A stretch of DNA of 64,000 bases from Gracilimonas sp. Lineage in GTDB: Bacteria; Bacteroidota; Rhodothermia; Balneolales; Balneolaceae. Under the pieces are notes generated by a model that did not search any database, had not been told where the DNA came from, and worked only from the letters and a program-made list of their open reading frames with translations. The position numbers and the translations under genes were made by a program. The DNA lies in assembly GCF_040218225.1 (NCBI RefSeq), contig NZ_JAVJQO010000003.1, positions 62,001 through 126,000 of the forward strand, given 5' to 3'. Positions 62,503 to 64,000 of the stretch are shown here, piece after piece (the stretch's first letter is position 1; the number at the start of each line of letters is the position of its first letter).

Positions 62503-63390
62503 ATGACAGAAGAAACCAAACCCCACAAATCCGGATATGTAGCCATCATTGGTAAGCCGAATGCAGGAAAGTCTACCTTGATGAATAACATTCTGGGTGC
62601 CAAGATTTCTATTACCACACATAAGGCTCAGACCACCAGACACCAGATTGTGGGAATTTTTTCAGATGAGAACTCCCAGATTGTTTTTCTTGATACACCG
62701 GGAGTCATTAGCCCAAAGTATGAGCTCCAAAAAGCCATGATGAAAACGGTGGAGCGAGCCCGTTCAGATGCCGATCTTATTTTGTTCATTCATGATCCTA
62801 TGGATACTCATCCCCCTGATGATGTCGTGAATCTCATCAAGTCCATTAACAAGCCGATTTATTTGGTAGTAAATAAAATGGACGTAGCGAATCAGGATAA
62901 GGCTGAAAAATCTGTTGCTGAGTTGGAATCGAAAATGAAAATCCGATCTGTTCATTATACCTCAGCTACCATGGGAACCGGAGTGACTGAACTGATGGAA
63001 GAAATTAAAAAAGGATTATTGCCCGGACCTCCCTTCTACCCCAAAGAAGACCTGAGTGAACACCCTGTTCGTTTCTTTGTTTCTGAGCTCATTCGCGAGC
63101 AAATATTCCTGCAATTTCACCAGGAAATTCCGTATTCCTGCACAGTAGAAGTTGTTTCTTATGATGCGGAAGTCGACCTCGATCGTATCCATGCCGACAT
63201 CATTGTTAACCAAAAATCACAAAAAGGCATGCTGATTGGGAAAGGTGGTTCTGCTATTAAGGAACTGGGAATTGAAGCCCGAAAGTCGATTGAAGAGTTT
63301 ATTGGTAAGCAGGTGTATTTAGAGCTTCATGTGAAGGTCCGCGAAAAGTGGAGAGAGAAAGAAGGCTGGGTTCGAAACCTGGGATATTGA
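62503..63390 (+). CDS. era: GTPase Era
   Basis: This protein of 295 residues has G1 IGKPNAGKST (Lys23), the switch TTRHQIVGIF, G3 DTPGVISPKYELQ and G4 NKMDVA, with a C-terminal KH domain around GMLIGKGGSAIKELG. It binds 16S rRNA for 30S assembly. The start lies 12 bases after the palindromic element. Confidence 0.96.
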   Translation: MTEETKPHKSGYVAIIGKPNAGKSTLMNNILGAKISITTHKAQTTRHQIVGIFSDENSQIVFLDTPGVISPKYELQKAMMKTVERARSDADLILFIHDPMDTHPPDDVVNLIKSINKPIYLVVNKMDVANQDKAEKSVAELESKMKIRSVHYTSATMGTGVTELMEEIKKGLLPGPPFYPKEDLSEHPVRFFVSELIREQIFLQFHQEIPYSCTVEVVSYDAEVDLDRIHADIIVNQKSQKGMLIGKGGSAIKELGIEARKSIEEFIGKQVYLELHVKVREKWREKEGWVRNLGY

Positions 63391-63411
63391 TATGGAACAC
63401 GGACGACGCGG

Positions 63412-63449
63412 ATTGGCGTATTTTCATTAAATTGGCGTATTTTCATTAA
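63412..63449 (+). repeat. Tandem 19-base direct repeat
   Basis: Two perfect adjacent copies (63412-63430 and 63431-63449) beginning ATTGGCGTATTTTC, 21 bases after the era stop. Probably replication slippage; no function apparent. Confidence 0.9.
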
Positions 63450-63693
63450 ATGGTTATCCTGATAAATTCTTATGCATTTCACACTCTCCTTAGCCCTTAT
63501 TTAAGATTTAATTATCTAAAAAAATCGCTTTAAAGATTTTAGTTTATTTGAGATTGAAAAGATTTTTAAAGCTGCGTTAAGTTCAAAAAAGAATAACCAT
63601 TTAAAATCTGTGCCAACCCGTAATATCAGTGTCATCCCTGTTCCATCAAAAAATAATTTGCGCCTTCCGTTATCTACCCTTAACATTAGGGCA
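63450..63693. other. Non-coding AT-rich region before the leader peptide
   Basis: I see no gene in these 244 bases. They must contain the promoter for the leader-peptide/SAM-riboswitch transcript, but I cannot pick a -10/-35 pair with confidence; a TAATTTG at 63654-63660 resembles the Bacteroidota -7 box (TAnnTTTG) only loosely. Confidence 0.4.
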
Positions 63694-63771
63694 ATGAAAT
63701 TAACTCAACAAAATATTATCAGCTCTTGTCCAATGATGTGTTGCATGTGTATGTGCATGACGCAGACATAA
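63694..63771 (+). CDS. Cys/Met-rich leader peptide
   Basis: This 25-residue ORF starts MKLTQQNIIS and continues SCPMMCCMCMCMTQT. Eleven codons (63727-63759) contain five Cys and five Met, which is far from random and typical of attenuation leader peptides. Its UAA stop (63769-63771) lies within segment 1 of a three-segment attenuator, and an S-box riboswitch follows about 100 bases later. Shortage of charged Cys- or Met-tRNA would stall the ribosome on the run. It is too short for most gene finders. Confidence 0.8.
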   Translation: MKLTQQNIISSCPMMCCMCMCMTQT

Positions 63772-63775
63772 GGGC
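63770..63775 (+). promoter_or_regulatory. Attenuator segment 1 (antiterminator arm)
   Basis: AAGGGC overlaps the leader stop codon and is complementary to GCCCTT (63804-63809), the core of the left arm of the terminator. With a ribosome stalled upstream this pairing would block the terminator; with a ribosome at the stop codon the segment is covered and the terminator can form. Confidence 0.55.
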
Positions 63776-63801
63776 GATGATATAAAGAAAAGATTTTAGA
63801 T

Positions 63802-63836
63802 AAGCCCTTTTGAATGCAACTCAGAAGGGCTTTTTT
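63802..63836 (+). terminator. Attenuator terminator (segments 2 and 3)
   Basis: Arms AAGCCCTT (63802-63809) and AAGGGCTT (63825-63832) with a 15-base loop, followed by a T run to 63836. It sits between the leader peptide and the SAM riboswitch, so transcription must pass it to reach the downstream gene. Confidence 0.85.
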
Positions 63837-63875
63837 GTTGGATTAAGTTTCGTTCGTTCTTTTACAATAGTTGCA

Positions 63876-64000
63876 TTCTCATTACGAAAGGTGGAGGGAT
63901 CAGGTCCTTTGAAGCCTTGGCAACCGCGTCGCACATAATTTTGTTATGTGGGATGAAAGGTGCTACATCCTGTCTCCGGTCTGTAAAGATCCGGGGAAAA
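63876..64000 (+). promoter_or_regulatory. SAM-I (S-box) riboswitch, 3' end outside window
   Basis: The conserved S-box core is clear: AGGTGGAGGGATCAG, CCTTTGAAGCCTTGGCAACC, a P3 stem CACATAA/TTATGTG, then AAAGGTGCTACATCC and a CCGG-based P4. The P1 strand TCTCATTA near 63877 should pair beyond base 64000. It binds S-adenosylmethionine and usually turns off genes for methionine or cysteine synthesis or transport; the regulated gene lies to the right of the window. Confidence 0.92.

Follow-up and report, generated by a model that had tools for sequence, protein, structure and literature searches.

The 3' end of the window (the whole 64,000-nt stretch of DNA analysed here, which comes from a Gracilimonas-type Balneolaceae genome) carries a short open reading frame rich in cysteine and methionine codons, an intrinsic terminator (T1) and a SAM-I riboswitch in succession, which very probably constitute a ribosome-mediated attenuator followed by a SAM-I OFF switch before a homocysteine/methionine operon. 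The arrangement is genuine and conserved, and it makes functional sense; its modules are all of known kinds, and what appears to be new is their conserved combination. All elements of the leader lie on the plus strand, and the elements, their family-wide conservation, their covariation and their geometry were observed directly in the genomes. The original prediction of two serial checks on one transcript, charged tRNA and then SAM, is supported by these elements and their conservation, while stalling, coupling of transcription and translation in this phylum and the amino acid that is sensed have not been demonstrated.

Loci and Genomic Context

SAM-I riboswitches (RF00162) were sought in 57 genomes of Balneolaceae, and the loci were read with their flanks, leaving out the G047 locus. 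According to the downstream gene, they were sorted into 52 metY-type and 19 metH-type loci. One metY-type locus (L019 of genome G015), whose "metY" is only 28% identical and is not an orthologue, was set aside, which left 51 true metY loci; some of the family counts below use the 52 loci including L019, and others use the 51. A second collection was searched with MetY and provided further Balneolales records, among which L082 is the same record as G001.

Beyond the window end, the aptamer and its terminator (T2) are followed by an operon consisting of a CoA-binding gene, metY, osmC (an OsmC-family gene), metX and hom (the homoserine dehydrogenase gene). The assembly also possesses a second SAM-I riboswitch (G000:C8:441766-441877, L001) before metH-metF, which has no leader ORF and a platform without a terminator. 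As well, an imperfect direct repeat TTGGCGTATTTTCATTAAA is present in two copies at 63412-63452, directly 3' of era, and a REP-like palindromic element (GAGGAGCC...GCAATCTCC / GGAGAT...CTCCTCG) lies between T2 and the first gene in locus L003 (L003:600-760), with a partial second copy 3' of the first gene.

The Cysteine/Methionine Leader ORF

The leader ORF MKLTQQNIISSCPMMCCMCMCMTQT runs from the ATG at 63694 to the TAA at 63771, as seen from its translation and from homologues in the family. Codons 12-22 read C P M M C C M C M C M (63727-63759), and the 25-codon frame with five Cys and five Met within eleven codons is thus exactly as originally predicted. TGYATGTGYATG occurs nowhere in the 3.5-Mb genome but inside the leader ORF, and a pattern search of the window genome for other CMCM leaders found none besides this one. 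With metY-metX-hom downstream, the short ORF meets the requirement of a ribosome-mediated attenuator for clustered codons of the end product.

A Cys/Met-rich ORF, an antiterminator segment and T1 are present together in 47 of the 51 metY-linked SAM loci of the family, where the ORF ends about 72-157 nt upstream of the aptamer, and a Cys/Met-rich ORF precedes none of the 19 metH-linked SAM riboswitches. All four exceptions belong to genus g4, in which the ORF and T1 are both missing; no part is lost alone, the genus without the leader ORF being also without T1. When the 240 nt before the aptamer were scanned on the forward strand, at least 5 Cys/Met in 12 codons were found in 47 of the 52 metY loci, against a maximum of 4 per 12 codons on reverse strands and at metH loci; dinucleotide shuffles reached at least 6 in 0.1% of cases. 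Among the further Balneolales matches, a recognisable Cys/Met leader stands before the aptamer in about 14 of 17, usually followed by T1 and GTTCTTTGA. The search for such ORFs in related genomes, which had been proposed as a check, therefore bears the prediction out, and the outcome that would have refuted it, homologous loci that keep the riboswitch but not the Cys/Met run or the complementary segments, was not obtained. An exception to this rule is L084, where an MRMCMCMC leader lies directly before the aptamer with no T1 in between.

Promoter-Like Elements Upstream of the Leader

A promoter-like pair, TTGCGC (63658-63663) and TAACAT (63681-63686) separated by 17 nt, occupies 63658-63686, with its -10 element ending 7 nt before the leader ATG. 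The pair is degenerate (7/12 consensus matches) and is not reported by a generic promoter scan; owing to this weak match, it is supported by its conserved spacing and position and not by the consensus. In about 36 of 47 loci, TTGnnn and TAnnnT are found 17-18 nt apart, and the -10 element ends 6-8 nt before the leader start codon, while the corresponding distance is 23-27 nt in genus g6. This placement suggests that the leader mRNA is leaderless or nearly so, with the transcription start itself being inferred.

Terminator T1 and the Antiterminator Segment

T1 consists of a 5' arm AAGCCCTTTTGA (63802-63813) and a 3' arm TCAGAAGGGCTT (63821-63832) with a T run to 63836, forming a 12-pair stem with a 7-nt loop (63802-63832). 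It is the only terminator-like site reported by a terminator scan of 63390-64000, for which shuffled sequences gave 0.6 on average. The antiterminator 5' segment CATAAGGGC (63767-63775), with the core AAGGGC at 63770-63775, overlaps the stop codon, and its 3' partner is the T1 5' arm. Both the AAGGGC at the stop codon and the terminator with its T run are therefore where the original prediction had placed them. All 47 loci with a Cys/Met ORF have T1 together with a complementary stop-codon segment.

Because the A1 alignment misplaces the stop-codon segment between genera, covariation was assessed by permuting free duplex energies and not with a covariance model. The region surrounding the stop codon was allowed to form a free duplex with the T1 5' arm at all 47 loci, and the pairs were then permuted, a procedure that preserves relatedness only partly. 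The loci's own pairs averaged -14.0 kcal/mol versus -11.8 for permuted ones, and none of 20,000 permutations was as good; the same result (0/20,000) was obtained with one locus for each of the 21 distinct T1 types, and shifted control windows gave -3.5 to -6.7. Compensatory pair types were observed at position 5 (A-T/G-C), position 6 (G-C/A-T) and position 7 (A-T/C-G/T-A). For instance, genus g20 has CGGAGGG with CCCTCCG and CAGAGGG with CCCTCTG, where the T1 3' arm is unchanged. The predicted three-segment logic, in which segments 1 and 2 form the antiterminator or segments 2 and 3 the terminator, thus holds, and the antiterminator covaries across the family.

Among the 47 loci, the start of the segment varies from -14 to +4 nt with respect to the stop codon end, yet every one of them keeps the segment 17-28 nt past the middle Cys/Met codon, with an SD of 3.5. 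The SD rises to 8.4 when the stop-to-segment offsets are permuted, and none of 10,000 permutations was as tight. Of all the evidence, this constant codon-to-segment spacing, kept despite drift around the stop codon, speaks most clearly. Given the footprint of a ribosome, one stalled in the run 17-28 nt away leaves the segment free, and one at the stop codon covers it. Two further requirements of a ribosome-mediated attenuator are hence satisfied, an intrinsic terminator 3' of the ORF and a mutually exclusive antiterminator with a ribosome-dependent segment, the latter on sequence evidence only.

Equilibrium folding with ribosome masks gave a mean T1 pairing of 0.83 in the stalled state versus 0.89 in the terminated state, and T1 forms in most loci either way. 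Since T1 is favoured at equilibrium even with the segment free, antitermination would have to be kinetic and take place, as it does in trp, while the RNA is being made. A "protector" helix between the 5' half of the leader and the stretch after the segment (here ATATTATC/GATGATAT) looked promising by eye in a few genomes; over the family it was not significant (own -4.8 versus permuted -4.5, 1790/20,000) and is not established.

SAM-I Aptamer, Terminator T2 and the boxA-Like Motif

The S-box aptamer that had been predicted 3' of the terminator was recovered by Rfam as RF00162 from 63876 to 64000, continuing 8 nt past the window end. It scores 49.8 bits in the window, where it is cut by the edge, and 63.2 bits as a whole, both over the gathering threshold of 44.4. 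T2 (AAAGCCTCTTTCGGA/TCTGAAAGAGGCTTT) lies at the equivalent of 64034-64069, beyond the window. Of the 52 metY loci, 50 have a T2-like terminator 3' of the aptamer, as against none of the 19 metH loci, so the metY aptamers have a terminator expression platform and are predicted to act on transcription, with SAM binding and the response to it being inferred; the metH aptamers probably act by another route.

Between T1 and the aptamer, a boxA-like motif GTTCTTTTACA is located at 63856-63866. GTTCTTT precedes the aptamer in 49 of 52 metY loci, including those of the leader-less genus g4, and in none of the 19 metH loci. An rRNA search of the window's own assembly was empty, and the comparison was therefore made with two relatives, whose rRNA leaders carry the similar GTTCTTTGAGA and GTTCTCTGACA. 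Any role of the boxA-like site in the leader is inferred from this conservation and likeness, without NusB-S10 binding data, and no description of a Nus-factor role in a riboswitch leader was found in the literature searched.

Proposed Mechanism and Alternative Explanations

In the absence of expression, ribosome-profiling or transcription data, the following steps are inferred from the elements and their arrangement. The leader peptide would be translated by a ribosome trailing RNA polymerase. When charged tRNA-Cys and/or tRNA-Met is scarce, the ribosome would stall in the Cys/Met run, leaving the segment 17-28 nt ahead free to capture the T1 5' arm while the 3' arm is still to be transcribed, and T1 would not form. 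When charged tRNA is plentiful, the ribosome would reach the stop codon and hide the segment, and T1 would form. A polymerase past T1 would transcribe the boxA-like site and then the SAM-I aptamer, where bound SAM would favour T2 and low SAM would allow transcription to enter the operon. Expression of the operon would thus require low Cys and/or Met charging together with low SAM.

The codons may be of both kinds because the homocysteine made by MetY is the precursor of Met and, if reverse transsulfuration operates, also of Cys. No serine acetyltransferase (cysE) was found at cut-off in the window genome, and for the best CysK-like protein, the cystathionine beta-synthase model gives 453 bits versus 292 for cysK, neither at cut-off. 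Were homocysteine the source of Cys, a single operon would feed both amino acids; this is an inference, and the Cys route is not settled. It remains quite possible, at somewhat less than even chances, that there is a single real signal, cysteine, and that the Met codons are carried along (or the reverse). The final 16 codons include at least 2 Cys in all 47 leaders (2-7, median 4) and between 1 and 5 Met (median 3), and the leaders of Pontibacter, Flavobacteriales and Saprospiraceae are mostly poly-Cys, as would be expected of a cysteine signal. However, Met is found in 47/47 leaders and makes up 26-51% of the codon positions that lie 15-32 nt upstream of the segment, far over normal usage, and some relatives are richer in Met.

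Two explanations without attenuation were also considered. T1 might merely end the era transcript, or be a spacer terminator, with the metY transcript starting between T1 and the aptamer and the ORF being incidental. This is very improbable, even though the same strand carries era about 300 nt upstream here and in many related genomes, and even though genus g4, which lacks the leader, has a promoter-like pair just before the boxA-like site and aptamer. An era terminator needs neither Cys/Met codons nor a covarying third segment, whereas the ORF, the segment, T1 and their spacing are kept together, and several loci have no era in the upstream stretch examined. Moreover, it is the leader start codon, and not the aptamer, that the conserved promoter-like pair precedes; a transcript start downstream of 63836, which would have refuted the attenuator, is accordingly not supported, as far as the start can be inferred. 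The idea that the ORF's product is a small Cys-rich protein with a metal- or redox-binding function of its own, the ORF being co-transcribed with the operon, deserves marginally less credence still. Two-thiol and Met-rich clusters can bind metals, and the N-terminus of the leader often starts with MK and varies slowly. The peptides nevertheless differ widely in length and in the order and spacing of Cys and Met, some being poly-Cys or AMCCMPC, and the Cys third codon positions vary across leaders (TGT 130, TGC 59); what stays constant is the distance from codons to segment.

Comparison with Known Systems

The closest known arrangement is the T-box/SAM-I tandem (PMC9481103), which likewise places serial RNA switches for charging and for SAM before metX/metY-type genes and has the same predicted logic. 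In the Balneolaceae, by contrast, the sensor of charging would be a ribosome translating a leader peptide, in which Cys codons accompany those for Met. No T-box is present in the window, where the Rfam scan gave tRNA and SAM only, so that the locus does not qualify as such a tandem. The survey of tandem riboswitches lists 2 and 7 cases of the T-box/SAM-I type (PMC9481103), whereas the present arrangement is near-universal in its family. A pairing with leader peptides is absent from two tandem-riboswitch surveys (PMC9481103; 2025 survey PMC12452182), in agreement with the original prediction that an attenuator stacked on an S-box was undescribed; among open-licence papers, no description of a leader-peptide attenuator combined with a SAM riboswitch was found.

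Similar to the trp and his leader peptides and the cysS uORF motif uORFC-8-2 (PMC8632094), the leader has a short ORF, a regulatory codon run, a segment near the stop codon, and an antiterminator and intrinsic terminator that are mutually exclusive. Unlike these, it mixes Cys and Met codons and is followed by an entire SAM-I riboswitch that has a terminator of its own. Cys-codon attenuators without riboswitches were already known before cysS (PMC8632094) and cys operons (PMC1262725). Mycobacterial Cys leader peptides were first noted in PMC1262725, and polycysteine leaderless short ORFs were attributed to Canestrari et al. 2020 in PMC9031893; they share with the present leader a Cys-codon ORF, probably leaderless, before sulfur-metabolism genes. 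Conserved terminator hairpins were not found at the mycobacterial cys leaders (PMC1262725), in contrast to the intrinsic terminator, covarying antiterminator and subsequent riboswitch in the Balneolaceae. Leader-peptide attenuation has also been proposed in a flavobacterium (PMC9723704). As for the riboswitch, it resembles an ordinary SAM-I (RF00162) in its aptamer score over gathering, its terminator platform and its Met-biosynthesis operon, and differs in being preceded by a tRNA-charging-type switch and a boxA-like motif.

Related Arrangements beyond the Balneolaceae

The order is reversed in Pontibacter, Rufibacter, Flavobacteriales and one Saprospiraceae record (L100, L109, L110, L113, L142, L143, L146, L147, L148 and L150), where the aptamer is followed by a poly-Cys ORF and then metY. 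The start codon of the ORF lies about 9 nt past the aptamer, 90-170 nt separate the end of the ORF from metY, and no obvious intrinsic terminator was seen after it in these loci; SAM might gate translation of the leader there. Two Calditrichota metY loci (L099:2580-3000 and L132:2580-3000) have a Cys/Met leader and a terminator without a SAM aptamer, and L099 possesses two leader-terminator units in series. The chances seem evenly balanced that, across Balneolota, Bacteroidota and related phyla, leader attenuation and SAM-I have been joined in both orders as a two-signal control of metY, a ribosome-based counterpart of the Firmicutes T-box/SAM-I.

Implications

Because leader peptides have no fixed sequence, they go uncounted in the published catalogues of RNA logic gates, which rest on Rfam families. 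If the proposed mechanism is true, methionine synthesis came under two-input control, by tRNA charging and SAM, through a ribosome-read sensor in one part of the tree and through T-boxes elsewhere, and transcription-translation coupling in Balneolota would be tight enough for attenuation. It would also suggest a Nus-type boxA at work within a metabolic riboswitch leader, for which there are no binding data. The question of why both tRNA charging and SAM should be sensed would then become testable in culturable strains, such as Gracilimonas mengyeensis DSM 21985 and Balneola sp. EhC07. In this Balneolaceae bacterium, the genes making homocysteine, the precursor of Met and possibly of Cys, appear to lie behind two RNA brakes.
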